This document shows positions 455-18,171 of a DNA stretch of 32,960 nucleotides, piece after piece (position 1 is the stretch's first letter; each line of letters begins with the position of its first letter). The notes below the pieces were generated by a model that made no database searches, was not told the DNA's origin, and saw only the letters and a list, made by a program, of their open reading frames with translations. The position numbers and the translations under genes were made by a program. Source of the stretch: Akkermansia muciniphila (GTDB lineage Bacteria; Verrucomicrobiota; Verrucomicrobiia; Methylacidiphilales; Verrucolacustridaceae); contig CAMDXQ010000007.1 of the NCBI GenBank assembly GCA_945878585.1, positions 1 to 32,960 on the forward strand, read 5' to 3'.

Positions 455-458
455 TGAT

Positions 459-2261: not shown

Positions 2262-2282
2262 AGAGAAAGACGAAATCAGGCT

Positions 2283-2969: not shown

Positions 2970-3121
2970 AGAACATTCCTCCTTTAAAGCAATCTAGGTC
3001 CACAGCCAAAGTTTGAAAGGCTTAGGAAGGGCCGGAACAGTCTTGTGTGCAGGTATCGATGCAGTTTCATATCTAGATATCATTCCCTCCTCACCCCCTG
3101 CCGTCGAACAGTAATCTCTCT

Positions 3122-4018
3122 TTATTCTGTTTCTGATTTTGACCCTCGATCCAAAAGAGCCAGTAACCCCTCTTTGGGTGACTTCTTTCCCTGCAAAACT
3201 TGAAAGAGCTCCTGAGCAATCGGGGCTTCAATTTTTTTACTTTCAAGAATTTTATGCAAAGCCTCCGTGGTGGGCACCCCCTCACAAACGCCGTCAACGG
3301 ATGCCAATGCCTGCGCGACAGTGTCACCCATTCCTAGACGCTCTCCTACACAACGATTTCGGCTGGAGCGACTATAAGAAGTTAGAATCAGGTCACCCAC
3401 TCCACTCAACCCCTGAACCGTTTCCTCCTGTGCACCAAAATAGACGGCCACACGGGTCATCTCCCTCAAGCTCCGAGTGGTTAAGCCAGCCAAACTATTT
3501 TCCCCCAAACCCAAACCCGCACACATACCAGCCGCAAGCGCATACACATTTTTTAGCGCTCCTCCCCACTCCACTCCGATCAAATCGATGCTGCGATACA
3601 CCCGAAGGGCGGGCCCATGGAGGGCTTTTTGGACGAGCAGTGCAAGGGCCTCATCTGTGGAGGCAGCAACCAGAGCTGTTGGAACTTTTTTGAGAATTTC
3701 CCCGGCGAGACTAGGCCCCGATACCGCCGCAAGGGCCGATTGAGGATAGGATTGGGTAAGGATTTCGCTCACTCGTTTTCCCGTGGCAATTTCAATCCCT
3801 TTGGAAAGGCTGACGATGGGAGTTTTTGCCGGAAGCCCTTTTATGTTCTTAAGGCACTCCCGTACCACTTGCGTAGGAAGTGCAATCCAAAGAAGATCCG
3901 TCTTCGATGGAATATCAAAATCCCCCTTATCCAGCCAGTGGACGGAATTTCCGCGCTCTTGAAGGGCCTGACCTATTGCCTGTCCCCAGGCCCCTTTCCC
4001 TAAAATAGTATGGTTCAT
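3122..4018 (-). CDS. gpsA: Glycerol-3-phosphate dehydrogenase [NAD(P)+]
   Basis: 298 aa; GKGAWGQAIGQAL N-terminus, SLSKGIE, SGPSLAGE, GVEWGGALKNVYALAAG, SRNRCVGERLG motifs; 4-nt overlap with plsY. Confidence 0.96.
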   Translation of the reverse strand: MNHTILGKGAWGQAIGQALQERGNSVHWLDKGDFDIPSKTDLLWIALPTQVVRECLKNIKGLPAKTPIVSLSKGIEIATGKRVSEILTQSYPQSALAAVSGPSLAGEILKKVPTALVAASTDEALALLVQKALHGPALRVYRSIDLIGVEWGGALKNVYALAAGMCAGLGLGENSLAGLTTRSLREMTRVAVYFGAQEETVQGLSGVGDLILTSYSRSSRNRCVGERLGMGDTVAQALASVDGVCEGVPTTEALHKILESKKIEAPIAQELFQVLQGKKSPKEGLLALLDRGSKSETE

Positions 4019-4617
4019 GGTTTCTCTGGTTTTACAAAACGGTTCTCTTTCCCTTGAAAAAGTCTCTTGAGGTTATCCCGATGTCGAAACCAAACCAGCA
4101 CTGTCATCCCGATCGAGATCCACTGAAAGACTTTCTGCTCTGGCATAAGCCAAAAAACGAACAAGGGAAAAGCAGTTGCCGCACACAAGGAGGCTACCGA
4201 AACAGTTCGACTCATTTGAAATGTAAGGAACCAGACCAGTGCAACACCCAGGGCGACCCAGGGTGCTAACCCGATCAGTATCCCCGCTGAAGTGGCCACA
4301 CCTTTGCCTCCTCGAAACCCAAGCCAGGGTGAAAAGACATGACCCAATACTGCAAAAACCCCCACAGTGACAGACCAAGTCTCCGGTAAATTGCCTACAC
4401 TCTTGGCCAGAGCGACCGCGATCCACCCCTTTCCTAGATCTAAAACGAACACAAAAATCCCCCACTTCTTTCCTAGAACACGCCCGACATTCGTTGCTCC
4501 TGTGTTTCCGCTTCCCTGGTTTCTTAAGTCAATTCCACGAACCAAGGCCAACCAGTGACCAAAGGGTAAAGACCCCAAGAAAAAGGCTGTCAGGACGTAA
4601 AGGACAGGGTTGTGCAT
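4015..4617 (-). CDS. plsY: Acyl-phosphate:glycerol-3-phosphate acyltransferase PlsY
   Basis: 200 aa multi-TM protein; GSLPFGHWLAL, GSGNTGATNVGRVLGKKWG, FRGGKGVATSAG motifs. Confidence 0.96.
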   Translation of the reverse strand: MHNPVLYVLTAFFLGSLPFGHWLALVRGIDLRNQGSGNTGATNVGRVLGKKWGIFVFVLDLGKGWIAVALAKSVGNLPETWSVTVGVFAVLGHVFSPWLGFRGGKGVATSAGILIGLAPWVALGVALVWFLTFQMSRTVSVASLCAATAFPLFVFWLMPEQKVFQWISIGMTVLVWFRHRDNLKRLFQGKENRFVKPEKP

Positions 4618-4713
4618 GGGAAGCGAGTTGGCCTAGTGAAACGAAAAGGGCAAGGAAAACCCCGCAAGAAATTCCGTTGGGTCGAAAGTCAATTTGAGGT
4701 ACTCTTTAATACT

Positions 4714-6093
4714 ATGCCTGAGATTACATCCGCCCAATTGACGGGTTCCAACCTGGAAACCTTTCGAAAGGCCAAAGATGCGATGGCGCGGCAAAATCAT
4801 GATTATGTAATCATGCTGATGCCTCCCGTTCTTGAAGCCAATCCCGGGCTTTTGGAGGGCCGTAAAATCTTACGGGCCAGCCAGATCGCAAAGGCAAAAA
4901 GTGCCTCAAAGATGGATAAGAATATGGCTGCTGTTCGGATCGCCCCAGCTGTCATGCAAGCCAAGTCAGCGGTTGGAAAATCTCTAGGTACTGGTTTAGC
5001 GAAACTTGAAGAGGCCTTAACTCTCGACCCTTTTAGTCCTCAGGCGAATGGGGCCTTAGGGGAAATCGCGTTAGAAAACGATCTCCCAGGCACAGCGGTA
5101 TTTGCTTTTGAGACAGTTCGATCAGGCAAACCGCAAGATACTCAAAATTTACACGGATTGGCTCGTGCCTTAATTGCCGCCAAGCAAATGGGTAAAGCCC
5201 GTGATGTTTATCAAGCCATTCTTGAGATTGCACCGAATGATGGGGCGGCATTAAAAGGAATGAAAGACGCCAGCGCCCTTGTCGCCACTCAGTCAGGTGG
5301 ATGGGAAAAATCGGAAGATTTTCGTGATTCCCTAAAGAATAAAGATGAGAGTGCGGCACTCGAATCCGCCTCCAAAGTCGTAAAATCTGCAGAGGCAATT
5401 GCGGAGCAGTTAACCCGTCTTCATGCTCAGTTCGAAAATGAACCTCAGAACGTAACACTAGCCAAACAGATAGCGGAGTTGTGCGAGGTTCAGGGATCCT
5501 TGGATCATGCCCTCCAGTGGTTTCAATTTGCCCATGAACTCACCCAAAAGACTGACCCTGCCCTCGAGAAAGCAGTGTTTCGCCTTCAGTGCGCCCTTCT
5601 CGATTCCGAGTTAGATCAGGCCAAAGCTGCAGCAGCGGAGAATTCGGTCTGCGAGGAAATTATTGCTCGAAAGAAATCTGTTGTTCTGGAAGGGGCGAAG
5701 GAGCGGGTGAAGCGATATCCAAACGATCTCCAGTACAGGTTCGATTTAGGCGAAGCTCTCATTGATAACGGCCAGTATAAAGAGGCCGTTCCAGAACTTC
5801 AGCAGGCTCTCCGTCAGCCCTCGGTTCGGCATCGGGCGCTGAATCTGCTTGGAGTTTCTTATCAGAAACGAAAGATGCTGGATCTTGCTGCAAAACAGTA
5901 CGCTCTTGCTGCATCCGAAATTGTGGCCATGGATAATGTCAAAAAAGACGCGATCTACTGTTTAGGGGTGATTCTTGAGGAAATGGGTAAAAAGGAGGAG
6001 GCCCTGGAGGAGTTCAAGAAAATCTACGAGGTGGACAGCCAGTTCCGGGACATTGCGGACCGAGTGGAAGCAGCGTATCAGCAGAGCGGTTGA
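4714..6093 (+). CDS. Tetratricopeptide repeat protein
   Basis: ORF 4612..6093 contains several TPR-like helical repeats (ALNLLGVSYQKRKMLDLAAKQYALA, AIYCLGVILEEMGKKEEALEEFKKIYEVD); the likely start is ATG 4714 (MPEITSAQL), which avoids plsY overlap. Confidence 0.85.
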   Translation: MPEITSAQLTGSNLETFRKAKDAMARQNHDYVIMLMPPVLEANPGLLEGRKILRASQIAKAKSASKMDKNMAAVRIAPAVMQAKSAVGKSLGTGLAKLEEALTLDPFSPQANGALGEIALENDLPGTAVFAFETVRSGKPQDTQNLHGLARALIAAKQMGKARDVYQAILEIAPNDGAALKGMKDASALVATQSGGWEKSEDFRDSLKNKDESAALESASKVVKSAEAIAEQLTRLHAQFENEPQNVTLAKQIAELCEVQGSLDHALQWFQFAHELTQKTDPALEKAVFRLQCALLDSELDQAKAAAAENSVCEEIIARKKSVVLEGAKERVKRYPNDLQYRFDLGEALIDNGQYKEAVPELQQALRQPSVRHRALNLLGVSYQKRKMLDLAAKQYALAASEIVAMDNVKKDAIYCLGVILEEMGKKEEALEEFKKIYEVDSQFRDIADRVEAAYQQSG

Positions 6094-6102
6094 TCGATAA
6101 AA

Positions 6103-6128
6103 GGCGAAGGCCGGATGGCCTTTTCGCC
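6103..6128. terminator. Probable bidirectional terminator hairpin between the TPR gene and rnpB
   Basis: GGCGAAGGCC-GGAT-GGCCTTTTCGCC, a strong stem with a small bulge in the convergent gap. Confidence 0.5.
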
Positions 6129-6142
6129 ACCCGGCCCTCGTT

Positions 6143-6556
6143 CCTGTGGAATCCGTAAGCCGGATTCTGTGGTTCTTTAAGTTTCCTCAAAGAACTGGCA
6201 GCCATTTCTCTAACCCGCCCGAAGGCGAATTTCGGTTCCGTGTTGCCACTTCACCGATGCGGCTCCAACCCGGGAGTGTCTCGCTTACGCGAGACGGGCG
6301 GATCACCCGTTCCCCCTGCTCGGCCTTGCACCATCCGTGGTTTGTCATTCTCCTCGGTTGCCCGAGAAGCGGTGGGCTCTTACCCCGCCTTTTCACCCTT
6401 ACCCAACTTGCGTTAGGCGGTATTTTTTCTGTGACACTTTCCGTCATCCCCAACTTTCGCTGAAGATGCCCCCAGCTTTCCCAGGGCGGATTATCCTGTG
6501 GTGTCCGGACTTTCCTCCCCCAGACTAGCTGAGGGCGACTGCCCTGATTCCAATCA
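6143..6556 (-). ncRNA. rnpB: RNase P RNA, bacterial type A
   Basis: Reverse complement reads TGGAATCAGGGCAGTCGCCC...GGGGGAGGAAAGTCCGGACACCACAGGATAATCC... through ...GAATCCGGCTTACGGATTCCACAGG; conserved GAGGAAAGTCCGG and GAATCCGGCTTAC blocks; P1 pairing TGGAATC/GATTCCA. Confidence 0.93.
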
Positions 6557-6616
6557 AGATAGTAAGGGCTAAATTCTTTCTGACAACACCCGACCCGAGT
6601 CAAACTTTAACGAACA

Positions 6617-6823
6617 TTACTCCATCCAAATCAACGGGTTCCAAGAGCATAGAGCCATCCACTCGATCACTAGTAAAACAATGGCAGAAGGAATAAGAAT
6701 GGTAAGTCCGAGACCTACTACGATTGGAAAATGCGGTATGTCTTTGCGATGTTTCACGAGTTGGGCTCCCCCAGCAAGAACAGCAACTGCACCTAATGTC
6801 ATAGAGGTTAAAATCATGTACAT
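6617..6823 (-). CDS. Small membrane protein, hypothetical
   Basis: 68 aa with two hydrophobic segments; intergenic position with no competing ORF. Confidence 0.5.
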   Translation of the reverse strand: MYMILTSMTLGAVAVLAGGAQLVKHRKDIPHFPIVVGLGLTILIPSAIVLLVIEWMALCSWNPLIWME

Positions 6824-6870
6824 CTATCTAACTACGAATCTGATCAAGACAAGGAAACTCCCCACCCAGA

Positions 6871-7707
6871 TCAATCCAAAGGTTTCCCCTTGGTATCGAT
6901 CGTTCGAGACTGGTTTCCAACACGAACGTGAGCCTTCCCATTATGAAAATCTGTTGCTTCATCAAACTCTGGAGCTATCGCGATTCCTCCTTTTGTATTG
7001 ATATACCCAAACTTGCCTGCAATCCGGTCCTCCAGCTGAACACGAGCCAACCCCTCAGAAAATCCTCCTGCCCAAGCATACTTTGAGTCAAAAGGGCTTT
7101 TGCCATCTGGCTGAATAAAAACCCAAGTCTTTTTATCTCCGGGGGGGCCACTTTTTTGAGCGGGAGCAAGACCCTCTGAAAAACCACCAACCTGATCAAA
7201 GTCAGGCTCGACCACTAGCTTTCCCTTGGCATCTACAAAACCCCACTTGGATCCATCCTTAACAGCCCCATATCCCCCTTGAAAAGGCCTCGTCCAATCA
7301 TACTCAGGTTCAATGGCCCATCTGCCTTGGCGATCGATATACCCAAACTTGCCCGTCAAGCGATCACCCTCTGACGCAGGGGCCAGATTTTCTGAAAACT
7401 CGCCCGCCCAAGAAAAGCGAGGCGGTATTTTCCAGTTTCCAGTCGCATCAATATAGCCCCATTTATCCTTCTCCCGTGCCGCCGCCACATCACCTTGAAA
7501 AGGCTTCACCTCAATAAATTTCGCCTCCACAGCCCAGGTCCCGTCCGGGGATAAAAACCCCCACTTCCCATTTTCACCCTTGGCGGGGGCAGGTCCTTTA
7601 GCAAAAAGAAGCTTCTCCGCCTCGTCTTGGCCCCGAGCAGTAAAAGTCAGGCCCCCAATCACTAGCCCCATGGCAAAAATAGAGACCCACTTCATCTCTA
7701 TAGGCAT
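6871..7707 (-). CDS. WG (KWG) repeat-containing secreted protein
   Basis: About six repeats of the type GKWGFLSPDGTW / DKWGYIDATGNW / GKFGYIDRQGRWAIEPEYD / SKWGFVDAKGKLVVEPDFD; signal peptide MPIEMKWVSIFAMGLVIGGLTFTARG (likely start 7707 or 7695 rather than 7779). Confidence 0.85.
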   Translation of the reverse strand: MPIEMKWVSIFAMGLVIGGLTFTARGQDEAEKLLFAKGPAPAKGENGKWGFLSPDGTWAVEAKFIEVKPFQGDVAAAREKDKWGYIDATGNWKIPPRFSWAGEFSENLAPASEGDRLTGKFGYIDRQGRWAIEPEYDWTRPFQGGYGAVKDGSKWGFVDAKGKLVVEPDFDQVGGFSEGLAPAQKSGPPGDKKTWVFIQPDGKSPFDSKYAWAGGFSEGLARVQLEDRIAGKFGYINTKGGIAIAPEFDEATDFHNGKAHVRVGNQSRTIDTKGKPLD

Positions 7708-7772
7708 AGGATTAGAAAAAAAGGGGTCAAGGCAGGGCTGGCACTTTATCCAGAACATCGGATAATGAAGCA

Positions 7773-8093
7773 ATGACAACTCCTCTCCTCAGACCCCTCC
7801 TCTGCCTCCTCTCCATTTTATCCTTCCCCATTTCTGCTCCTTCTCAAGACATCGGTTTTGAAGGTGGCGCTAGCCCGTATACACCCCAGCAACTTCACGA
7901 GCTTCTGGTCGGACAAAACAATATTGGAGTTATCAATTTCTTTGGACGCACTCCAAACCATCAGCAGGGCTTCGACTGGATCTACAATCGTCTTCTGATC
8001 GAAATCCCGGAACGCAACCAGTACTTCACAACCGCTGTGGTGTGCTTTTCACACGGTGACCATAGGGTATGGCAGGTGGTTTGTTATCCGTAA
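7773..8093 (+). CDS. Small secreted hypothetical protein
   Basis: 106 aa; signal peptide LLRPLLCLLSILSFPISAPSQ; directly upstream of the tRNA-Val attachment locus. Confidence 0.6.
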   Translation: MTTPLLRPLLCLLSILSFPISAPSQDIGFEGGASPYTPQQLHELLVGQNNIGVINFFGRTPNHQQGFDWIYNRLLIEIPERNQYFTTAVVCFSHGDHRVWQVVCYP

Positions 8094-8109
8094 GGTTTTC
8101 CACTACACT
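8081..8109 (+). promoter_or_regulatory. Candidate native promoter of the interrupted tRNA-Val gene
   Basis: TTGTTA (8081-8086), 17-nt spacer, TACACT (8104-8109), about 15 nt before the tRNA 5' end at 8125. Confidence 0.5.
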
Positions 8110-8124
8110 AAATCATGTTACTTC

Positions 8125-8161
8125 GCGCGCTTAGCTCAGCGGTAGAGCGGCTGCCTTACAC
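8125..8161 (+). pseudogene. Truncated tRNA-Val 5' half (attL core)
   Basis: gcgcgcttagctcagcggtagagcggctgccttacac, 37 nt identical to 16721..16757; diverges immediately after the anticodon. Confidence 0.92.
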
Positions 8162-8265
8162 CATGTTTAATGGGAGTTTCTCATTTTCTCCTAATTGCTG
8201 CCAATTTTATTCTAGCTCGAGGAAACGCCTCTAAAGCGTTCCCACCTGCTTTTTCGTATAGGGAT

Positions 8266-8289
8266 ACCTTTAGTAACGTTTTTAGTAAC
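8266..8289 (+). repeat. Paired TTTAGTAAC repeats at left end (candidate integrase arm-type sites)
   Basis: ACCTTTAGTAACG (8266-8278) then TTTAGTAAC (8281-8289); similar pair ACCTTTGGTAACG...TAGTAA at the right end. Confidence 0.4.
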
Positions 8290-8337
8290 ACGCCCCACTT
8301 CTCGGGATGCGCCATCAATACGCACACCCTACGCCGT

Positions 8338-8580
8338 TCACTCCAATGAATCGCCCCAATCATCCACCGGGTATTGAGAAGGCATCGTGAGGAAGTGCCG
8401 GGCAATCTCCGACAAGTCTGCCCCGCCAGCCTTGGGAAATATCTTCACGCCTTTGCGATCGTAAATTGCCCACGCCTTCGGATCGGGCGGCAGTAAGAAA
8501 ACGCCCATCTCGGACGCGATCGTCATTAGCCCTCGGACTTGTCCCTCGAGCAGGATCCGCTTGCCGCGCTTGTCTCTCAA
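8338..8580 (-). CDS. Hypothetical element protein (paralogue of 8840..9064)
   Basis: 80 aa, TTG start, TTGA overlap with upstream ORF; shares a D..G...FP..GG..L.EI...F..P pattern with 8840..9064. Confidence 0.6.
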   Translation of the reverse strand: MRDKRGKRILLEGQVRGLMTIASEMGVFLLPPDPKAWAIYDRKGVKIFPKAGGADLSEIARHFLTMPSQYPVDDWGDSLE

Positions 8581-8843
8581 TTTCCGATCTCCCGCTCATA
8601 CAAAAAGCCTTCAACTTCAAACGCGCCGAGGTTCCCGTGAAGCGGGTATCGTTGCGACTCATCCTCACGCCGGACAAAGGCAAATCGATCTCCTCCGCAT
8701 TTCACCATCTGGAATCCGCAACACGCCGCCCTCCTTGCCCACACCATCTCGCGCATCGTGGCCGTCAAAAACTTTCCCGGTGGGGTATGAGCTAGGCAGG
8801 CAGGCCAACGGCTCGCCAAGATCCGAAGGAGTGCCTTTCTCAC
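8577..8843 (-). CDS. Hypothetical element protein
   Basis: 88 aa, GTG start, GTGA and TTGA overlaps with both neighbours in the operon. Confidence 0.55.
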   Translation of the reverse strand: MRKALLRILASRWPACLAHTPPGKFLTATMREMVWARRAACCGFQMVKCGGDRFAFVRREDESQRYPLHGNLGAFEVEGFLYEREIGN

Positions 8844-9064
8844 GTTTGCGGATCTTGTGCGAAGTAGCCGCGGATCTCTCGAAGGAAAGCCCCGCCAACT
8901 CCCGGGAAAACTCTGCGCCCCGCGTGATCCTTGAGGATGAATGTCGAGTGAAGTTCATCCTCCGGGATAAGCCGCAGGAAACGCCGCTCGGCCTCGGCCT
9001 TGGCTCGTTCCAACTGCTCGCCCCACGTCAGTCCCATCGCCCTCTGCTCCGGCGTCAGCATCAT
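8840..9064 (-). CDS. Hypothetical element protein
   Basis: 74 aa, ATGA overlap with the upstream gene; predicted helical. Confidence 0.6.
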   Translation of the reverse strand: MMLTPEQRAMGLTWGEQLERAKAEAERRFLRLIPEDELHSTFILKDHAGRRVFPGVGGAFLREIRGYFAQDPQT

Positions 9065-9627
9065 AGGTAATCGCCCAGCCGTTGCCGCCAGTTCAGCGGC
9101 TCGCGTGCCTCCTCGTTTTCGTCGGGTGTGGGTGTGCCGATCTCATTTTGTAAATCTCGGATCTTTCCTTGTAAGGCGAGGATCCTCCCGGACGCGATAT
9201 ACTCAACGCCGTCAGCGGCGGCGGCCGCCTCCTCCTTGGCTGTGTTGGTTCGCAGTTCGTCCAGCGTCGCCTCCAACGCCCTTCGCAGGCATCGCTTCAC
9301 GATCGCGTGCGTAGGGAGGAGGATCTGATTCATTCGCTTTTTGATCCCGCCCAATGCCGCCTCCAAATTTTCGTGGGTGTGAGGAAACGATGGAAACGCC
9401 CCGGCGAGAATGATTTTCTGAAAGTTCGCCTCGGTGGGATCCTCCGCATATTTCACGGCGGCGTTGGCTACGTCCTCGCCCCTTTTGTAGATGTTGGTTG
9501 GAAAGCGGCTCTCAATCGTCTTAAAAGCCGTTTCAAATCCAGTGCATTTCTTTTCGAGTCCTTCCAGCTCTGCCCGATCGGTCGCCGTCACGATTGCCTT
9601 TTTTCCAAATATAGTTTTCCAATTCAT
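9061..9627 (-). CDS. Hypothetical element protein
   Basis: 188 aa, helical, in an overlapping operon. Confidence 0.7.
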   Translation of the reverse strand: MNWKTIFGKKAIVTATDRAELEGLEKKCTGFETAFKTIESRFPTNIYKRGEDVANAAVKYAEDPTEANFQKIILAGAFPSFPHTHENLEAALGGIKKRMNQILLPTHAIVKRCLRRALEATLDELRTNTAKEEAAAAADGVEYIASGRILALQGKIRDLQNEIGTPTPDENEEAREPLNWRQRLGDYL

Positions 9628-9654
9628 TTTCTGTTTTTCCTTTTTGTTGGTTGT

Positions 9655-10104
9655 TTATCGATTCAATCCGTAGCCGCTGAAAATCCGTTGCACGTTCCGT
9701 TGCTCCTCACGCATCCGGACGATCCCGCGTGCGTCGTCGTCATTCATCGCTGGATCCGGCTCGCGGATCGGCTTCTTGCCTTCCCGGATTCGCTGATCGT
9801 TTAATTTAAGAATGCGGAGTGCGTTTGATTCTGCCGTGGCACGATCCCGACGTGCCTCCTGGTCGGATTTGCAAAGGCGTTTCAGCCGCTCGCCGTGAGC
9901 CTCCTCCAATACTGCGGAGAGCTGATCCAGTTTCCGGGACGAAAAGATCAGCATTTTTCCAGCTCGGGAGTGCGCCCGGATCGTTCCGTCGGTGATCCAT
10001 TTTCGTAGGGTGCTGCGGCTTACTCGCGCCCGGAGCCGTCGGGCGAGAGATGTTAGGGTGTGCGGTTCTAGTTCGTGTTTCATTACTTGTGCCGATTGTG
10101 TCAA
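9655..10104 (-). CDS. Helix-turn-helix (MerR/Nu1-like) DNA-binding protein
   Basis: 149 aa; TLTSLARRLRARVSRSTLRKWITDGTIRAHSRAGKMLIFSSRKLDQL resembles an excisionase/MerR-type wHTH, with a charged C-terminal tail. Confidence 0.6.
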   Translation of the reverse strand: MTQSAQVMKHELEPHTLTSLARRLRARVSRSTLRKWITDGTIRAHSRAGKMLIFSSRKLDQLSAVLEEAHGERLKRLCKSDQEARRDRATAESNALRILKLNDQRIREGKKPIREPDPAMNDDDARGIVRMREEQRNVQRIFSGYGLNR

Positions 10105-10111
10105 CCGACGC

Positions 10112-10591
10112 TTACGTCCTTCGCCGTGTTCGCTGTCTGTTGCCCTTCCGCTTGAAACTCGCGTGTGTCCCGCTTGCCATCGCTCGGAGCTGTGCGTCCC
10201 GGTACCTCGTTCTCGCGCTTTCGGATTTTCGCCATCGTGCGTGTCCTAGTCCAAACTCCTCGGCCAGCCGGATCGCGTGCTTACTCAAACTTGCCCGAGT
10301 GACGCCGATCTGTCTTGCCGCTGCCAACTGCGACAACTGCAAAACGTCCGGGCAAAGGTGAAGGGTAAGAGCGATAAATCTTTTTGCCGTTTGGGATGCG
10401 TCCTTTGGGGTGACTAGCTTGCGGATCAATTCCATCAACGCCCCGGCCAGCCTATGCTCCGAGTCGGTGAGCCGTTTCACGGCGGGATCCTCGCCCTCGA
10501 TCTGCGTCACGATCGATTCCACACCGGCGCCGCTGTCGTGAGCGTAGAGTGCCGCGTCCCGATCCCAAAAAGTGTCGCTCAATGAAAACAT
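10112..10591 (-). CDS. Helix-turn-helix domain protein, hypothetical
   Basis: 159 aa; LSQLAAARQIGVTRASLSKHAIRLAEEFGL HTH-like segment followed by a basic tail. Confidence 0.6.
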   Translation of the reverse strand: MFSLSDTFWDRDAALYAHDSGAGVESIVTQIEGEDPAVKRLTDSEHRLAGALMELIRKLVTPKDASQTAKRFIALTLHLCPDVLQLSQLAAARQIGVTRASLSKHAIRLAEEFGLGHARWRKSESARTRYRDAQLRAMASGTHASFKRKGNRQRTRRRT

Positions 10592-10761
10592 CCCAACTGC
10601 GGCAAGCCCTTGGCCTTGCGCTTTTCGTTCTCACGTTCGACGGCCGCCAACGCTTCAAACCATTTCTTACTCCCAGAGTCTCGCCACGATCGCGCTGTCC
10701 AGATCGTGACTTGTTTGAGTTCGGCTACTTGTCGGAGTCGATAATCTAAATACTTGGGCAT
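10579..10761 (-). CDS. Small HTH-like protein
   Basis: 60 aa; LRQVAELKQVTIWTARSWRDSGSKKWFEAL resembles HTH/TerS-type N-terminal domains; overlaps the start of 10112..10591. Confidence 0.5.
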   Translation of the reverse strand: MPKYLDYRLRQVAELKQVTIWTARSWRDSGSKKWFEALAAVERENEKRKAKGLPQLGCFH

Positions 10762-10930
10762 ACCGGGAGAGATGACGTCAACCCCCTCCCTCTCTTAAAG
10801 TTTTGATGGCTGCAATTGCCGGATCGACGGCAGTCGGTTCCACCGCGTTTATTTCTTCCGTAGGATACTATTGATCGCCCCTCTGACGCCGTCTGGATCC
10901 CGGTTGGAGCTGTGCCGCTGTCTCTGTATG

Positions 10931-10962
10931 TTACGTAAATCTCAAATTAACATAGATTTTAC
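10931..10962. promoter_or_regulatory. Candidate operator in divergent intergenic region
   Basis: TTACGTAA palindrome (10931-10938) overlapping the inverted repeat AAATCT (10937-10942)...AGATTT (10954-10959), between a minus-strand operon and the plus-strand gene at 10996. Confidence 0.35.
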
Positions 10963-10995
10963 TCAGAAAGACCGGGACGGCATGGTTGAAATAGC

Positions 10996-11808
10996 ATGAA
11001 AAAGGAGACCGAGTTCCAAGTCGGTAGGGATGGGGAGATCATTGGGTTGTTTTCATGTGTGACAGCGCTTTCAAAAGCCTCGGTCGGCGCGCTGCGGCCA
11101 AGCGATTACGCGTATATAATCCCAAGGAGCAAGGGAAGCTGGGTTCACCTGTATAAGGTTTTGAAGAAAGTTTATGATCGTGAGTTCTTCGATGAGCTTG
11201 GAGAAAGTGAACTTGATAAAGAGCTAAAAGCCGAAACGCAAAAGGCGAATGAGTTCCTCAAGCTATATAAAAAAGCTTTTGCCAAGGAGACGGACAAGAA
11301 AAAGCTAAAGGAGTTTTGTGCTAAGATTGTGGAATACGAAGAGCTATTGAAACATCTCAGCGGAATAAAAGAGCGAATCCTTACTCAAAAAGCGGAATGG
11401 GAGGAGGAGGAAAAAAGGGATTTGGAAGAAGATCAAAAAGCAATAGAGGCAGAAATGAAAGAGAAAGTGGATAATGTTGTCGAAACACTAAAGGGGATGA
11501 TCGAAGAGGCGAAAAAAGATTGGCGCGGCACTTATGTTCAGGAGGTTCCTCTAGAGGATATGTGCTTCGACTGGTGGTGGGATTACAAGGATGTGCTGCT
11601 TGATTTTTGTAAAAGCAAAGCAAACGAAAAAACAGCAGAGTCTCTTTGGAAAGCGTTTAGGAGAATAAAACTATACAAGGGAGACCTCACCGCTCTTGCG
11701 GAAAAGATTGTTCAAGCTAAGGAAAATACCGATGCCGACAAAGGCGAAAAAGAAACGGAACAAATCTTCTTTGCCTTTTTAATTCAAAAGGGCGTTTGGG
11801 CAAGGTGA
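10996..11808 (+). CDS. Coiled-coil-rich hypothetical protein, the only plus-strand gene of the element
   Basis: 270 aa; extensive charged helical segment (Glu/Lys rich), A-rich codon usage, orientation opposite to all other element genes. Confidence 0.75.
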   Translation: MKKETEFQVGRDGEIIGLFSCVTALSKASVGALRPSDYAYIIPRSKGSWVHLYKVLKKVYDREFFDELGESELDKELKAETQKANEFLKLYKKAFAKETDKKKLKEFCAKIVEYEELLKHLSGIKERILTQKAEWEEEEKRDLEEDQKAIEAEMKEKVDNVVETLKGMIEEAKKDWRGTYVQEVPLEDMCFDWWWDYKDVLLDFCKSKANEKTAESLWKAFRRIKLYKGDLTALAEKIVQAKENTDADKGEKETEQIFFAFLIQKGVWAR

Positions 11809-11819
11809 AGCAGAATCAC

Positions 11820-11947
11820 TATCACCGAAAAACTGAATTAACCCGCCTCCCCTGCCTACTATCACTATCACCACCCTTATAGGTGGTGGTGGTGATAAGT
11901 GCGTAGGCTATCACGTGGCACTATCACGCTATCACGCCGTGGTGATA
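11820..11947. repeat. Iteron-like array of TATCAC motifs; candidate replication origin
   Basis: TATCAC at 11820, 11860, 11866, 11909, 11922, 11930 and inverted GTGATA at 11892, 11942; includes inverted repeats TATCACCACC(11866-11875)/GGTGGTGATA(11888-11897) and ACTATCAC(11920-11927)/GTGATAGT(11942-11949). Confidence 0.7.
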
Positions 11948-11948
11948 G

Positions 11949-13043
11949 TTAAAAAGGCATGTGACCATTGCTTGGGATTGATTGAGCCTTTACTCGGTAG
12001 GTTTGCCTTTTGCCGTCACCCAAAACGTCCAAAACATCTACCTTACCTTGTTCGACGAGCACCTTGCGGTGCCGATTAAACGTTGCCTCAGATATTCCGG
12101 CACGTTCGCACGCCTCCTTCCAGTCGCGGTTTCTCCAACCAGTTTCGGGAGCTTCTGCCAAAACGTCCAAGACCTTGCCAGTCGTCTCTGTCTTTTGACT
12201 GCTTTGCTTTGTTCGGATCTTTGACGGATCCTCACCATGGGCGATGCGATGGAATGGAGTTTCCCAACAAAGGACAAGCGGCTCCACCGGGGCGCCATGC
12301 CTCCGCGTCATGTCGAAGATCACGTGGTCGTCCTTTTCGTGCGGCCGCATCGTGATGAGCAGATCGGGATCCCTTGCCCATACACCTGTCCCGCTGAAAA
12401 GATCGATGCTGTTTCGGGTGCTCAAGTCACCTTTCGGGCTGTGATGACTTGTTATGATTCCGCATTGAAGCGGAGCGGCGATCTCATTCAGCGCTTCAAG
12501 GTATTGTGCCACCATCATCTCGCTATTTGTACCCTGCACCGACGCCTCCACCATCTTGTAACTAGGCTCAAGGATTACCAATTCCACACCCTCGTCCTTA
12601 AATCTTCGTATTGTATCTGCGACAAGCTCATTGATTTTCGGCTTGGGGTGACAATCTCGGAGTGACCATAGGATCAAGTTTTCGGGATGTGGCACGTTGA
12701 GCGCTTTAGAGATTGCGGCCATTCGCCGATCGAAAAAGATCGAGATCAACTCAAGGTCAATATACACCACCTTTCCGGCCTTCATTTCCCATCCAAACCA
12801 CGGCAGGCCGTTCGCTTTGCATATCGCAAGATGCAACAACGCCCAACTCTTTCGGCTTTTGCTGGTAGATCCAAGGACTGCACGCTCTCCTGCCCTTAGC
12901 AGCTGCCCTACGATCTCCTTGGGTAACTTGGCTGGATCTAGCTCTTCCGGGACTTCCGAGGCCTTGTAGGTCTGTGTTGCGGCGATTCCTGAAACAGCCG
13001 CATTTAGCTTTTTGGCAGCTTTATCAATTTTGTCGTTTTTCAT
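11949..13043 (-). CDS. RepA-like AAA/RecA-fold ATPase with C-terminal winged helix
   Basis: 364 aa; P-loop GSTSKSRKSWALLHLA, acidic VVYIDLEL and VELVILEPSYK strands, C-terminal wHTH (GWRNRDWKEACERAGISEATFNRHRKVLVEQGKV). Confidence 0.75.
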   Translation of the reverse strand: MKNDKIDKAAKKLNAAVSGIAATQTYKASEVPEELDPAKLPKEIVGQLLRAGERAVLGSTSKSRKSWALLHLAICKANGLPWFGWEMKAGKVVYIDLELISIFFDRRMAAISKALNVPHPENLILWSLRDCHPKPKINELVADTIRRFKDEGVELVILEPSYKMVEASVQGTNSEMMVAQYLEALNEIAAPLQCGIITSHHSPKGDLSTRNSIDLFSGTGVWARDPDLLITMRPHEKDDHVIFDMTRRHGAPVEPLVLCWETPFHRIAHGEDPSKIRTKQSSQKTETTGKVLDVLAEAPETGWRNRDWKEACERAGISEATFNRHRKVLVEQGKVDVLDVLGDGKRQTYRVKAQSIPSNGHMPF

Positions 13044-14026
13044 TTATGTTTATTTCTTAAGGGTCTCGTGACAACCGGCAGCGCCTCCGCTTTAGGATCC
13101 AAAAATAAAAGTTTCTGCTGACGATCTCCACGCATGCCTCCCGGCAAGCGGGTCAGCCTAACGGCCGTCATCGCTTGTGGATCTGCCCCATACCGAACGA
13201 GACCGGGTTGCACCTTGTCCAGATCCTCCAAAAACGCGGCCTTACTGGATGATCCCCACCTGACGAGCAGGTGGATCGACTTACCCCCAGACGACGTGAT
13301 CGACGCGATGGGAAGCGGCACTTGAGCCATCGCACGAATCCAGACCAAGGAGTCCGGCTTATCGCACTCCAGCACCATGTGGCGAAAGTCGGTCAGGTTT
13401 GTCTCAGATCGCAGGCTCCACCTTCCGTCAGCATTTTTCCGCACTTGTCCGTCCACTGGGTTCGATAGGTAAAATATCCCTTCCACCGATTTCATCCCAT
13501 TCACCCACTCAGCCCGGCTGCCTACCCGGTAAGGTCTGCCAGGATCGTTTAGGCGTGAGGTGATGACGACAAACTCCTCCGGCTGGAAAACTGCCTCTAA
13601 GAAGTCGCAAGAAGTCACTCCGGCTGGATCCACCGGACTCCGAGCCGCCACGTCCTCCCACGTCAGCTCCGGGACGCTGGCGGCAAACTTCATCAAATCC
13701 CCTGCGCTATAACTCGGCTTTGTGACGACGGAGGTCATAGGGCGATCTCCTGACGCCTCTGCCTTGACGTATTCGTAGGCTCGCTGGAGCTGCCTTTCCA
13801 GATCCCGCGGGACAACACGGCCTCCGGCTGCCCGGATGCGCTTCTCTACCTCATCCCGAGCTGCCAGCGCCTCTACCTCGAGCGATCCTGCCCGGAGAAA
13901 CGCATCCCACGCCTGCTCGTTCTTCGTCACGCCTGCCGCCCATGGCAGCTTATCCAGATACCTCAGCCATTCGCCCCACGGATCGGGACGTCTTGCGGTC
14001 AGACTCATCGGGCTGCTTCCACCCAC
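13040..14026 (-). CDS. Primase-like (archaeo-eukaryotic primase/prim-pol type) replication protein
   Basis: 328 aa; HMVLECDKPDSL, ITSSGGKSIHLLVRW, AVRLTRLPGGMR resemble AEP metal-binding, SxH-type and substrate motifs; ATGA overlap with the ATPase gene. Confidence 0.6.
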   Translation of the reverse strand: MGGSSPMSLTARRPDPWGEWLRYLDKLPWAAGVTKNEQAWDAFLRAGSLEVEALAARDEVEKRIRAAGGRVVPRDLERQLQRAYEYVKAEASGDRPMTSVVTKPSYSAGDLMKFAASVPELTWEDVAARSPVDPAGVTSCDFLEAVFQPEEFVVITSRLNDPGRPYRVGSRAEWVNGMKSVEGIFYLSNPVDGQVRKNADGRWSLRSETNLTDFRHMVLECDKPDSLVWIRAMAQVPLPIASITSSGGKSIHLLVRWGSSSKAAFLEDLDKVQPGLVRYGADPQAMTAVRLTRLPGGMRGDRQQKLLFLDPKAEALPVVTRPLRNKHK

Positions 14027-14220
14027 TTCGTCAGCTCATCAGCCGGGATTAGGACGTGCCGGAAACGCTTTATCGACTTGATCCGTCCCGCAGCGATTTC
14101 TTTTCGGATCGTCAGGGTGGAGATCCCAAGGATCTCGGCAGCTTCTTTGATTTTGTAGGTTAGACGCGGGAGACTATTGACTGAGCCGCCCCCCGCTTGG
14201 GCTGTGGTGTGTGCTTCCAT
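14005..14220 (-). CDS. AlpA/excisionase-family HTH protein
   Basis: 71 aa; YKIKEAAEILGISTLTIRKEIAAGRIKSIKRFRHVLIPADELTKWV is a typical excisionase-family (HTH_17) domain. Confidence 0.8.
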   Translation of the reverse strand: MEAHTTAQAGGGSVNSLPRLTYKIKEAAEILGISTLTIRKEIAAGRIKSIKRFRHVLIPADELTKWVEAAR

Positions 14221-14253
14221 GGTGCTTAGGAATATCCCTAAGCACTCGGTGAT

Positions 14254-14784
14254 CTATCGGCTTTTAGTAGCCTTTTTCTTTGAATTGCTACGCGCGGAAG
14301 ATAGTCCGGTCATCACCTTGCGGATTCTTTTGAAGATATTTACTCGAGCCGACTCATAGTTTTTTGATGGTGGCAGTAATGAGCAAGCCAACTTGCAAAC
14401 ATCTTGGCGGGTTAATTTCATTCCTTTAGCGGCAGGATTTTTCAAGTAGATCATCGTGTGGGCATTTAGTATGGCCAGAAGATAAGGATCCTTGCCCCAC
14501 TCTAGATCGGGCAAGTGCTCAAAGCATCGCCCCATTTTGATAAAAAATGTTTTGTCTCCCTTGAGTATTGCTTGATCACATAAATACAACAATTTCTCCC
14601 TCGCATCTTCAATTTCAGATTCCTCGTTCGGATCGCTCTTGGCTCCATTTTTCATCGCCTTAATCGCCGTCCTCCAATGCTCAAACTGGATAACATCACT
14701 CCCCCATAAATGCTCCGTCAGATTTCCGATTGTATATGGAACGCGACTTCCTGACTTACGTCCTCGCTTAAACTGATGACTCAT
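14254..14784 (-). CDS. Hypothetical protein
   Basis: 176 aa, full-length ORF in the operon, basic C-terminus. Confidence 0.65.
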   Translation of the reverse strand: MSHQFKRGRKSGSRVPYTIGNLTEHLWGSDVIQFEHWRTAIKAMKNGAKSDPNEESEIEDAREKLLYLCDQAILKGDKTFFIKMGRCFEHLPDLEWGKDPYLLAILNAHTMIYLKNPAAKGMKLTRQDVCKLACSLLPPSKNYESARVNIFKRIRKVMTGLSSARSNSKKKATKSR

Positions 14785-14795
14785 TTCAATGGTTC

Positions 14796-15284
14796 CTACA
14801 ACACCCGATACATGTGATGCGGCTTTAGAGATTTGGCGAAAGTAAACATTTCATCAATTTCCCCAAAGATCCTCCACTCGTTCCTTTTTATTGCTTCGGA
14901 GATATATTCACGCAGTTCAAGTTTTCTCTGTTGATGACTTATCTCTGATCTTTTTAGGCGATCAGCATGTTGTAATACATCAAGCCCAACCTCTAGCCCG
15001 GCTGCAAACCAACCTGGATGCGTGGTGTCTGTATTCACTATGCCATCGACTATATCCCAAAGGTCTTTGAGGTCAGGATACCGCACTTCTCTTGCTTTTA
15101 TCCACTCCCTGCGGGCTTTTATGTGCTCTTGGTTCGGATTTTTCTGGGGATGCTTAGTAAGTTCTGCTTTGCGTTCTAAATGCTCATCCCACTGCATAAT
15201 TGCATCAGTCTCGTTTTTTGCCCAGCCGAGCCTAATTGATTCAGCGATCCAACGATTTTTCGGGGTTGAATTTTGCTCTCTCAT
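14796..15284 (-). CDS. Hypothetical protein
   Basis: 162 aa, ORF in the same operon orientation. Confidence 0.65.
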   Translation of the reverse strand: MREQNSTPKNRWIAESIRLGWAKNETDAIMQWDEHLERKAELTKHPQKNPNQEHIKARREWIKAREVRYPDLKDLWDIVDGIVNTDTTHPGWFAAGLEVGLDVLQHADRLKRSEISHQQRKLELREYISEAIKRNEWRIFGEIDEMFTFAKSLKPHHMYRVL

Positions 15285-15299
15285 ATTTTCTCGTCTACT

Positions 15300-15563
15300 T
15301 TAATCCCCTTTGCGCTGTCTTTGCTCAAGCTCGAGCAACCTCTTTTTCCCTTTTCCAACACTCCAAAGGCATAGGCCACCACTCGCAACTGCCACTAGGA
15401 CAAGGACGAAAAAGCCTGCATCATTAGGATTTTCCCATGCGAATAGTATTGCGACGATCCACCCAACCCAGAAAGCACACGTAGTCGCATGATTGCTTTT
15501 TTCAATCTGTATATACTCAAAGATTTCCCCATCGCTCCACCCAGTAAAACGATTCTTTTTCAT
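15300..15563 (-). CDS. Small membrane protein (two TM segments), hypothetical
   Basis: 87 aa; CAFWVGWIVAILFAW and GFFVLVLVAVASGGLCLWSV; ATGA overlap with the integrase gene. Confidence 0.65.
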   Translation of the reverse strand: MKKNRFTGWSDGEIFEYIQIEKSNHATTCAFWVGWIVAILFAWENPNDAGFFVLVLVAVASGGLCLWSVGKGKKRLLELEQRQRKGD

Positions 15564-16633
15564 TTTAGTAACTCCAACTGCTGATCTTCAAACTTCCCAC
15601 GAACATGTCGACGATAAACTCGCAGAATTAAAGCACCTCCGTCGGTGTGCCCCTGAGTCTTGGCGACGATCCCGACGTCCACACCGGCCTCCAGCGCGAT
15701 CATGATGAACATTCGACGAAACGCCTTGGATGTGAAATTGGGAAACTTTAGATCCTCGCATGCATGCTGCAGCGCCTTTTTAGGATCCCGGATGGCAAAC
15801 ACCTTCGCCCCGGTGGATAGATCAACCGCCTCCTTTTCCATGCGTTCAATGAATGGACGGAGCTTGGGATAAACTTTGATCGTAAAACTTTTCCCAGTCT
15901 TGCGCCTAAGTAAATGGATCTCTCCTTTTTTTACATCCACGTCACCCCACTGCAGTCCGGCGCACTCGGCCAGCCCTACGCCTCCCAATCCCATAAACTC
16001 CACCAGATCAGCGGAAGCAGTCGCAGTATCGGAAAAGCGTCGCTTGCGGATCGTTTTGACGATCTCTTCAAATTGCTCCCGCGATGGTGTGGGTCGCAGA
16101 ATGTCTTTATCGGCCTTTCCTGCGAACCCGGAGGCGGGATTGTCTGCCCTCACCTTGTCCTTCACGCATAGGTCAAAAATTGCCCTCAGCGTCCACCCAA
16201 AGTGATTTCGGTAGGAATTAGAAACTGGGTCAGATCCATTTTTCTTTTTCAGCTTTGAGATGAAGCTGAGAACGTCTGAGGCTTGAATGTTTTTGATAGG
16301 GACGTTGGCCTGATGCGGCCACTCGGCCTTGATCCGGGCAGCGAAAAGCCGATCGTTTTTTAAGGTGCTTACAGCGCCCCCGCTTCGAGTCTCTAGCCAC
16401 TTGTCGGTTGCCGCAGTAAGCGTCCGGGATCGTTGCCCCTGATCGATGCTGTCGTCCTCGCCCCTGCGGATCTTAAGGAGCCGTCTTGCCTCCATCAGAT
16501 TTTCTGTGCGTAAGGATTCTTGGACGGAGCGGCCGTTGTGGCTATATATAGCGAAGTATGAACCGCGCTTTTCGTTGCCGTATTGGAGCCGATAAAGGTG
16601 CGGCTCTATGTTTGCCCACGTCCTTTTTGCCAT
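15560..16633 (-). CDS. Tyrosine recombinase/integrase (divergent active site)
   Basis: 357 aa; core-binding domain, GLAECAGLQWGDVDVKKGEIHLLRRKTGK, SKAFRRMFIMIALEAGVDVGIVAKTQGHTDGGALILRVYRRH; adjacent to the tRNA att site. Confidence 0.9.
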   Translation of the reverse strand: MAKRTWANIEPHLYRLQYGNEKRGSYFAIYSHNGRSVQESLRTENLMEARRLLKIRRGEDDSIDQGQRSRTLTAATDKWLETRSGGAVSTLKNDRLFAARIKAEWPHQANVPIKNIQASDVLSFISKLKKKNGSDPVSNSYRNHFGWTLRAIFDLCVKDKVRADNPASGFAGKADKDILRPTPSREQFEEIVKTIRKRRFSDTATASADLVEFMGLGGVGLAECAGLQWGDVDVKKGEIHLLRRKTGKSFTIKVYPKLRPFIERMEKEAVDLSTGAKVFAIRDPKKALQHACEDLKFPNFTSKAFRRMFIMIALEAGVDVGIVAKTQGHTDGGALILRVYRRHVRGKFEDQQLELLK

Positions 16634-16643
16634 GCCCGATCCT

Positions 16644-16667
16644 ACCTTTGGTAACGGAGACTAGTAA
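16644..16667 (+). repeat. Right-end copy of arm-type-like repeats (ACCTTTGGTAACG...TAGTAA)
   Basis: Matches the left-end pair at 8266-8289 in sequence, orientation and spacing (17 versus 18 nt). Confidence 0.4.
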
Positions 16668-16707
16668 ATGACTTTATTCGCTTTTTTTAATGATTGTAAG
16701 TCATTTA
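16665..16707. promoter_or_regulatory. 10-bp perfect inverted repeat upstream of int and tRNA-Val
   Basis: TAAATGACTT (16665-16674) ... AAGTCATTTA (16698-16707). Confidence 0.5.
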
Positions 16708-18171
16708 TCGATAGTATTTAGCGCGCTTAGCTCAGCGGTAGAGCGGCTGCCTTACACGCAGTTGGTCGGAGGTTCAAATCCTTCAGCGCGCATCCTTCTT
16801 CTTTCGATCCTCGCTCTCCCATTGCCATCGTTCTCGAGCTCCCCAGATTCGGCCGGCCCGGTCTATGTCATTCCGATCCAAGGTGAGATTCAAAAAGCCA
16901 CTGTTTACGTCGTTCGCCGGGGTGTGAAAGCCGCCCTCGAAGCAAATGCTTCTGCGCTCGTCTTGGATATGAACACGCCCGGCGGAGAGGGCGAAGCGAT
17001 GAAGGAGGTCATGGCCACTCTTGCGAAATTCCAGCCTGCCGACCAAACCTACACCTACGTTAATAAGGAGGCATTCTCCGCAGGAGCATTCATTTCCGCT
17101 TCCACCAGACACATCTGGATGGCTCCCGGTTCGATCATCGGAGCGGCCTCTCCTGTGACGCTCGGCCAAGAAGGGCCCAAGGAGTTGCCACCGAAATTTG
17201 TATCCGGCTACGCAGCTTTGATCCGAGCCGCTGCTGAGGAAAACGGACATAACCCAGCCATCTTTGATGCGATGGTGAACAAACAGATGGGCCTCAAGAT
17301 TGATGGTCGTGAAATTGTTGCCAAGGGAGACATTCTCACCCTGACAACACAGGAAGCGACACGACTCGTCGGAAAACCCGCCCGTCCCCTTCTCTCTGCT
17401 GGAGTTGCCCCCGAACTTCAGTCCTTGATTGAAAAAACGATCCGCCCCGGAGCTCCTATCGTCCGAATTGAGCCAACCGGATTTGAAAATATCAGTCGCT
17501 GGATCATCACGATTTCTCCGCTCCTTCTTAGTGGCGCTTTTCTGTTTGGTTATCTTGAATTCAAAACACCTGGCTTTGGACTGTTCGGGATCCTTTGTGG
17601 TATTTGCGCCTTCGTCTTTCTTTTTGGTCACTATATCGCCGGTCTTTCTGGATATGAAAACGCCTTGCTTCTTCTCTTGGGAATCACTCTTCTGATCGTT
17701 GAGTTCTTTCTTTTTCCCGGAACGTTCATTCCTGGGCTTGCAGGTCTCGCGCTGATTTTATTTGCTGCGCTCAATACGATGATCGACCGGTATCCCTCCG
17801 ACCCTGCAATACCGAGTATGCCCCAGCTTCACTTCCCTGTGATCAACCTTGCCCTCGGATTCTTTGGCGGATTGACGGCGATCCTTTTGGCTGCCCGTTT
17901 TCTACCAGAAACCGTCCTTTTTAGACCTTTTCGCCTAAGCACAGTCTCACCGTCCGGTTCCCTTCCCAGCCGAATCTCCCTCGCCCCCGGAACCGTAGGA
18001 AAAGCTCTGACCGATTTGCGTCCCAGCGGCAGCGCCGAAATCAACGGTCAGAGTTTTGATGTCCTGGCGGAGGGTCAGTTCATTCCCCAAGGAACACACA
18101 TCCAGATTCACCAAGTGGAAGGAGCCACCATCTTTGTTCAACCCGCAAAACCTATAAGAAAGAAATCCTGA
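16690..18171 (+). CDS. NfeD family protein (ClpP/SppA-like serine protease domain plus NfeD membrane/OB domain); true start uncertain, ORF reads through tRNA-Val
   Basis: GPVYVIPIQGEIQKATVYVVRRGVKAAL, LVLDMNTPGGEGEAMKEVM, NKEAFSAGAFISAST motifs, multiple TM, C-terminal OB-like GTVGKALTDLRPSGSAEINGQSFDVLAEGQFI. Upstream residues are translated tRNA. Confidence 0.85.
   Translation: MIVSHLSIVFSALSSAVERLPYTQLVGGSNPSARILLLSILALPLPSFSSSPDSAGPVYVIPIQGEIQKATVYVVRRGVKAALEANASALVLDMNTPGGEGEAMKEVMATLAKFQPADQTYTYVNKEAFSAGAFISASTRHIWMAPGSIIGAASPVTLGQEGPKELPPKFVSGYAALIRAAAEENGHNPAIFDAMVNKQMGLKIDGREIVAKGDILTLTTQEATRLVGKPARPLLSAGVAPELQSLIEKTIRPGAPIVRIEPTGFENISRWIITISPLLLSGAFLFGYLEFKTPGFGLFGILCGICAFVFLFGHYIAGLSGYENALLLLLGITLLIVEFFLFPGTFIPGLAGLALILFAALNTMIDRYPSDPAIPSMPQLHFPVINLALGFFGGLTAILLAARFLPETVLFRPFRLSTVSPSGSLPSRISLAPGTVGKALTDLRPSGSAEINGQSFDVLAEGQFIPQGTHIQIHQVEGATIFVQPAKPIRKKS
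16721..16792 (+). tRNA. tRNA-Val (anticodon UAC)
   Basis: GCGCGCT/AGCGCGC acceptor stem, GCTC...GAGC D-arm, GCTGC CTTACAC GCAGT anticodon arm (TAC), GGAGG TTCAAAT CCTTC T-arm, discriminator A. Confidence 0.95.

Follow-up and report, generated by a model that had tools for sequence, protein, structure and literature searches.

Introduction

Phage satellites are typically under AlpA control, and to our knowledge no satellite is known in the bacterial group that hosts the present locus. The described systems closest to it are the PICIs of Gram-negative bacteria and the PICMIs of Vibrionaceae, phage-inducible chromosomal minimalist islands. An 8.6-kb element within the analysed window, a stretch of 32,960 bp to which the coordinates in Table 1 refer, was compared with both, and a second element of 8.1 kb was found in the same assembly. 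The size of the former lies inside the 7–20 kb range of satellites (PMC13376191).

Results

Comparison with described systems

Gram-negative PICIs and the 8.6-kb element have in common int, an AlpA/MerR-type regulator, pri-rep genes and the lack of virion genes. The PICI origin is placed 3' of the replication gene (PMC6092414), and the candidate origin of the element, a CTATCAC cluster, would occupy the same position. In contrast to the PICIs, the element is 8.6 kb and not about 15 kb long, it has no capsid-morphogenesis genes, and no TerS was detected by the profile search of the element. The assignment of u162 as a small terminase was dismissed, the match having only E = 0.17. The transcription is also not unidirectional as in PICIs, because the 270-aa gene is located on the + strand and all the other genes on the – strand. 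The single orientation reported in the preliminary description for the integrase, 2-TM, two uncharacterised, AlpA-like HTH, primase and RepA genes was confirmed; it does not extend to the whole element.

The resemblance to PICMIs lies in the small size and in the order of the genes, with an ATGA-overlapping gene by int followed by AlpA and then by a primase, as well as in the absence of capsid remodelling and the presence of cargo beyond the primase. The PICMI gene iolg overlaps int by ATGA (PMC10803314); this overlap, a common but non-obligatory PICMI trait, is found in the 8.6-kb element. The identification as a PICMI was nevertheless dismissed: the element resides in tRNA-Val and not beside fis, has a second operon of uncharacterised genes, and encodes a primase that by Pfam falls outside the DUF3987/DUF5906 type, neither primase nor RepA giving a match to PF13148 or PF19263. 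Among the other systems, P4-like satellites differ by psu, delta, sid and alpha, all of which were without match in the element (Pfam, PHROGs). The cfPICIs differ by their own capsid, portal and packaging genes, and integrative mobilizable elements, for which a relaxase and/or oriT is characteristic, by the relaxase (Pfam, NCBIfam), none of which was found here. Thus, the 8.6-kb element does not match the definitions of PICI, PICMI, P4-like satellite or cfPICI.

Boundaries and the integration site

The exact 37-bp direct repeats claimed in the preliminary description to bound the block were recovered, the right one coinciding with the 5' half of an intact tRNA-Val(TAC). The unit between the att repeats measures 8,596 bp. 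In 20 of 20 congeners the tRNA-Val was intact and element-free. In most of these the left flank could be aligned straight into the tRNA gene, the sequence on the attL side being the left neighbour of the tRNA. The insertion is therefore real, and the idea that the gene set might be fixed in all relatives, with no empty tRNA-Val site, was contradicted. That the element inserted in the 5' half of tRNA-Val and itself restored the tRNA is well supported by the sequence. The 5' half of a tRNA gene is a rare site, accounting for 159 of the 3,919 islands in Islander (PMC4383910), and the clade of the present integrase targets mostly this half.

Table 1. Positions and assignment of the features of the 8.6-kb element in the window.
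Feature	Position	Strand	Basis or remark
attL	8125..8161	+	displaced 37-bp 5' fragment of tRNA-Val(UAC); exact repeat of 16721–16757
80-aa uncharacterised protein (u80)	8338..8580	–	ORF; 4-nt overlap with u88; paralogue of u74, BLASTP E = 2e-6
88-aa uncharacterised protein (u88), tail module	8577..8843	–	homologue in second element
74-aa uncharacterised protein (u74), tail module	8840..9064	–	homologue in second element
188-aa all-helical uncharacterised protein (u188), tail-module marker	9061..9627	–	homologue in second element; AF2
149-aa MerR/excisionase-like winged-helix protein, helical C-terminus (u149)	9655..10104	–	HTH_17 E = 2e-4
159-aa HTH protein (u159)	10112..10591	–	homologues adjoin RepA in several class genomes
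60-aa uncharacterised protein (u60)	10579..10761	–	ORF
270-aa uncharacterised protein, candidate cargo	10996..11808	+	ORF between the two operons; G+C about 44% vs 55%
Iteron-like candidate origin	11819..11948	.	7 CTATCAC copies and a 16-bp imperfect inverted repeat
RepA-like ATPase (helicase half)	11949..13043	–	AAA_25 E = 3e-22; phrog_2597 profile positions 351–554
Primase-like protein (other half of phrog_2597)	13040..14026	–	phrog_2597 E = 4e-14; 4-nt overlap with repA
AlpA/excisionase-type HTH	14005..14220	–	HTH_17 E = 1e-10; TIGR01764 above cut-off; phrog_66
176-aa uncharacterised protein	14254..14784	–	without significant family match
162-aa uncharacterised protein (u162)	14796..15284	–	without significant family match
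2-TM protein	15300..15563	–	hydropathy; start overlaps int stop by ATGA (iolg-like position)
Tyrosine integrase	15560..16633	–	PF00589 E = 4e-13; aligned catalytic boxes
attR	16721..16757	+	5' half of rebuilt tRNA; exact repeat
tRNA-Val(TAC), intact, integration target	16721..16792	+	ARAGORN, Rfam

Replication module

Both halves of the phrog_2597 primase-helicase, known from temperate phages of Streptococcus, Enterococcus, Faecalibacterium and Paenibacillus, are recognisable in the element. In contrast to the phage protein they are encoded by two overlapping genes, with about 30–35% identity. The relatives of RepA came mostly from temperate phages (51 records) and scarcely from plasmids (2 records). 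Directly 3' of repA, seven copies of CTATCAC occur within 130 bp; the whole window contains eight, and none of the 100 shuffles reached eight in the window. Judging from the gene content and this candidate origin, the element would replicate itself.

Second operon and candidate cargo

The second compact operon of small genes noted earlier is present, and the proteins of its tail module gave no match to anything known. The AF2 model of u149 (pLDDT 76) had a MerR/RacA-like fold with a best E of about 0.01–0.03. A Nu1-like terminase small subunit was considered for u149; the fold search returned just general MerR/RacA-type matches. The u188 model, consisting of helices alone at low confidence, was too poor for a fold search. 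Two PADLOC assignments were dismissed: u188 as ThsB, with a match spanning a short helical stretch, and the 270-aa protein as SspE (E = 6e-5), a coiled-coil-type match over a short helical stretch.

The second element

The 8.1-kb element (contig C17 of G000, locus L086, 7695–15797) is located at tRNA-Val(CAC). Homologues of int, AlpA, u149, u188, u74 and u88 occur in both elements in the same order. The integrases are homologous with E = 2e-50, the u149 homologues are 31% identical, and the corresponding values for u188, u74 and u88 were 31% (E = 3e-30), 36% (E = 1.8e-10) and E = 1.8e-7. The ATGA overlap between the 2-TM gene and int is likewise present in both. The elements thus have in common the integrase, the 2-TM overlap gene, AlpA, the tail module and a valine tRNA target. 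In contrast, a family-A DNA polymerase replaces primase and RepA in the second element, its att site is 20 bp long and corresponds to the 3' end of the tRNA, the anticodon is CAC, and no iteron cluster was seen in it. The right-flank gene of the second element was not beside the tRNA in the two genomes compared (G003 and G004), and an empty site was not demonstrated there.

Searches for virion genes and relatives

Pfam, PHROGs, NCBIfam and PADLOC gave no match to a capsid, portal, protease, terminase or relaxase in the 8.6-kb element, which upholds the earlier statement that capsid, portal, protease and large terminase are lacking. Virion genes, which would have pointed to a small or decayed prophage, were not found, the profile search giving no head or tail genes, and no capsid-remodelling gene was identified in the element.

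With scans that detect close relatives, RepA and the integrase gave nothing in 85,462 genomes, and RepA, integrase, u159, u188, u149 and PolA gave nothing in IMG/VR, where close relatives alone are detected. Further carriers of u188 were absent from 62 genomes of the order, 286 of the class and 388 of the phylum; two matches (G466 and G333, E = 0.003) were dismissed, no u149 partner adjoining. The loci L063 and L065, first read as kin, were also dismissed, as only RepA and u159 were in common. The family consists of two members only, both from one metagenome assembly. A 7.7-kb element of the same class (L061 in G110), located in tRNA-Leu with a 40-bp att from the tRNA 5' half, has a related integrase, primase and RepA; it differs by an ERCC4-type nuclease gene and by the lack of tail-module homologues.

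Discussion

The best explanation, to which we assign a probability of roughly 0.6, is that the locus carries a virion-less mobile element which integrates, replicates itself, operates in the manner of a PICI/PICMI-type phage satellite and belongs to a two-member, module-swapping family. The undescribed capsid-less, replication-equipped integrative family suggested previously is supported by the empty sites, the iteron-like origin and the second member. According to the gene families, the AlpA-type factor would switch on and aid integrase-driven excision, and primase and RepA may be loaded at the CTATCAC iterons, from where they would replicate the circle formed by excision. A helper phage would provide capsid and packaging, and the HTH proteins together with the u149-u188-u74-u88 module could serve regulation, packaging or interference. 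The family appears to keep its outer modules and to swap the replication module, exchanging primase and RepA for a family-A DNA polymerase.

The findings do not decide between a phage satellite and an integrative plasmid. A self-replicating hitch-hiker that moves without phage particles, by conjugative mobilisation, vesicles or transformation, would agree with the candidate origin and replication genes, the lack of a packaging gene, the second element's own DNA polymerase and a clade-mate of the integrase on a 47-kb island, whose ORF listing (no family search) contained no evident phage genes. This explanation is rather unlikely, as relaxase and partition genes are missing, AlpA control is typical of satellites, and the replicase is of a temperate-phage type that is rare in plasmids. 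The phage-type integrase and primase/RepA could also be the remains of a prophage that lost its late genes, and in a further tRNA element of the class (L075) a major capsid gene is retained. Such decay is improbable: the two elements, diverged and located at two sites, agree in size and in their layout without capsid genes, and their genes are intact and overlap tightly, which indicates maintenance.

Assembly also has to be considered. Positions 1–8167 of the window are 96% identical to a congener of another species (G001), whereas the identity from 16721 onwards is only about 73–77%, and contig C5 of the same assembly carries its own 74–77% copy of the left flank ending about 240 bp before the tRNA. 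For these reasons the contig is probably chimeric. That the block itself was joined from pieces of different genomes is very improbable, since a single species switch, located at the repeat common to all, suffices, the genes form continuous overlapping operons, and the same gene order recurs on a separate contig in the second element. One or both of the att junctions must be genuine; the owner may be either the present species or another one sampled with it.

Alike in their ends and tail genes but unrelated in their replicases, the two elements amount to a natural swap experiment, in which the conserved part marks what mobility needs and the swapped part shows that replication is interchangeable. 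The finding also offers a compact module with which satellite biology can be tested in a group of uncultured bacteria. A more far-reaching proposal can be made only tentatively: a new phage-satellite family whose tail module hijacks helpers, whose replication engines are exchanged, and whose Arg-I-less integrase works and has exchanged the 5' half of the tRNA for the 3' half as its target.

The integrase poses a question of recombination chemistry, namely how an enzyme with Gly at Arg I, from a clade mostly targeting 5' halves, could act. In the aligned boxes of the 8.6-kb element's enzyme, catalytic Arg I is replaced by Gly and the His of box II by Lys. The arginines R243, R282, R306 and R307 are common to the integrases of both elements. 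Activity is not assured because the integrases of both elements are without these two residues. The catalytic Arg I is missing or shifted also in the IntCTnDOT and IntDes subgroups (PMC8138268). The likeness is confined to this anomaly and no kinship is claimed; in the present integrases Arg I is replaced by Gly and the first (box II) His by Lys or Arg.

Insertion site and flanking sequences

The exact 37-bp direct repeats that the preliminary description had placed at the ends of the block were confirmed and delimit a unit of 8,596 bp from repeat to repeat. The right repeat corresponds to the 5' half of tRNA-Val(TAC), to just past the anticodon. One full copy of this tRNA per genome was detected by tRNA search in 21/21 genomes of the genus. 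It was intact in 20/20 relatives, and the left flank abutted it without the element wherever the flanks aligned. The fixation of the gene set in relatives, named earlier as a refuting outcome, was not observed, as the site was empty in these 20 congeners; the insertion is thus a real one that is polymorphic and unfixed in relatives.

Positions 1-8167 were 96% identical to the congener G001 along the entire length, while the identity from 16721 to the contig end was ~72-77%, similar to other congeners. Another contig of the same assembly, C5, carries its own left-flank copy, 74-77% identical to the window, whose end is ~240 bp away from the tRNA. The data are most simply explained by a chimera of two co-sampled species, joined at the tRNA sequence (37 bp or 72 bp) that they have in common; recombination at the tRNA is a possible alternative source of the flank mismatch. 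The repeat required for a chimeric join is the att site itself, and an assembly artefact was considered as a rival explanation of the element. That the element itself is such an artefact is unlikely; the flank data require no more than a single join, which leaves one att junction genuine. The carrier may be either of the two species. At the C5 end beside the tRNA-Val site (L078, G000:C5:1-181), the identity to G001 shifts from ~75% to ~95% within 181 bp, reflecting either recombination or an assembly graph tangle.

Features of the window element and of the second element (L086, contig C17)
Feature	Position	Strand	Match or remark
Left repeat, 37 bp	8125-8161
Integrase	first gene from tRNA	minus	PF00589
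2-TM protein, 87 aa	second from tRNA	minus
Unknowns, 162 aa then 176 aa	after 2-TM gene	minus
AlpA/excisionase-type HTH	after 176-aa unknown	minus	HTH_17, TIGR01764
Primase-like protein, 328 aa	after AlpA-type gene	minus	PHROG 2597
RepA-like AAA protein, 364 aa	after primase	minus	PHROG 2597
CTATCAC x7 within 130 bp	11819-11948		between repA end and 270-aa gene
270-aa protein	beyond repA	plus	low G+C
Operon of 60, 159, 149, 188, 74, 88, 80 aa	after 270-aa gene		several 4-nt overlaps
Right repeat, 37 bp	16721-16757
tRNA-Val(TAC), intact	16721-16792		Rfam
Second element	L086 7695-15797		8.1 kb
Its 20-bp exact repeats	L086 7675-7694, 15778-15797		tRNA 3' end

Gene content and putative origin

The primase-like and RepA-like proteins matched consecutive parts of a single PHROG, 2597 ('DNA primase'), and thus represent a primase-helicase divided between two overlapping genes. 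Of the 384 class genomes, 37 contained relatives of RepA, with ~30-35% identity for the better matches; in several other genomes RepA occurs together with the 159-aa HTH protein. The 74- and 80-aa proteins (u74, u80) are paralogues.

In the window, CTATCAC occurs in 8 copies vs 1.6 expected (0/100 shuffles reached 8), and no unrelated 7-mer with comparable clustering was found there. The cluster, adjoined by a 16-bp imperfect inverted repeat, is a putative iteron-like origin immediately 3' of the replication gene.

A second element in the same assembly

When u149 and u188 were searched through the class, one other convincing carrier was found, on contig C17, adjoining tRNA-Val(CAC). Its integrase is homologous to the window's (E=2e-50), and homologues of AlpA, u149, u188, u74 and u88 follow the same gene order. 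The start of the 2-TM gene lies within the int stop codon (ATGA) in the window element and the second one alike. In the latter, the place of the primase/RepA pair is taken by a family-A DNA polymerase of 598 aa, which includes an exonuclease region, and a protein of 249 aa. Since the ends and the tail module (u149-u188-u74-u88) are shared and the replicases differ, the two elements form a putative family with an exchangeable replication module, on the thin base of two members from one assembly.

The 249-aa/polymerase pair recurs in other class genomes, there without the tail module. At L127 (G288:C10), a module of integrase, AlpA, a 236-aa protein and a family-A polymerase adjoins RadA-like and replication-protein-like genes, which places the PolA module in further integrated elements of this class. 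Palindromic repeats at L086 16642-16734 (GGTAGGGACGCGTACCCCTACGCGTCC...) also occur in many congeners and form a REP-like family of the genus.

Integrases

A tree was built from ten integrases of the studied loci, two of its outgroup enzymes being labelled by adjacency alone. The two family integrases paired in it (support 100/99), within a clade (100/98) that also contains the integrases of L061 (G110, same class) and L072. The tRNA 5' half is the target for the window element, L061 (tRNA-Leu, 40-bp att) and L072 (tRNA-Met, 43-bp att, ~47-kb island); Islander assigns 159 of its 3,919 islands to this class (PMC4383910). The second element targets the tRNA 3' end, so the target half switched within the family. 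Both family integrases carry Gly at catalytic Arg I, which is Arg in all eight others and IntI4, and Lys/Arg in box II vs His or Asn in the others; Arg II, the GH box and Tyr are kept. If active, they would recombine DNA without Arg I. Arg I is lost or shifted in IntCTnDOT and IntDes integrases, with a substitute arginine in IntCTnDOT (PMC8138268). The L072/L131/L132 island (G265:C1 ~1762525-1809580) encodes 1,700-aa and 949-aa proteins, with no phage genes evident among its listed ORFs.

Proposed lifestyle and relation to known satellites

Judged by gene families, the element would be controlled by the AlpA-type protein, excised by the integrase and replicated as a circle by primase and RepA, starting at the iterons; packaging by a helper phage would follow by inference. 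This scheme is considered the most likely. An integrative plasmid is one rival; RepA relatives were found in 51 phage records vs 2 plasmid records. Family and profile scans of the element found no virion genes, as previously claimed, nor terminase, relaxase or known defence genes. A decayed prophage is unlikely, because two diverged elements retain the same virion-less layout.

The putative origin matches the place reported for PICIs, directly 3' of the replication gene (PMC6092414), and the 2-TM gene holds the position of PICMI iolg, whose start overlaps int likewise and which is required for excision (PMC10803314). However, one gene runs opposite to the rest, unlike in Gram-negative PICIs, and profile searches found no TerS; unlike PICMIs, the element is at tRNA-Val instead of fis and its primase has no DUF3987/DUF5906 match by Pfam. 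It belongs neither to P4-like elements nor to cfPICIs. The element may work like PICI/PICMI while lying outside their definitions; it thus represents a new, satellite-like family of integrative replicons, with a putative satellite lifestyle.

Besides primase/RepA and two integrases, a 10-kb tRNA-Glu element (L075, G293:C117, 3745-13704; 23-bp 3' tRNA repeats) encodes one HK97-type major capsid protein (PF05065, E=1.7e-38), and is perhaps a capsid-bearing satellite. In the single-contig genome G341, four RepA homologues (C1: 4499439, 4535159, 4570879, 4606599) are spaced by exactly 35,720 bp, representing either one integrated element repeated in tandem or an effect of the assembly.
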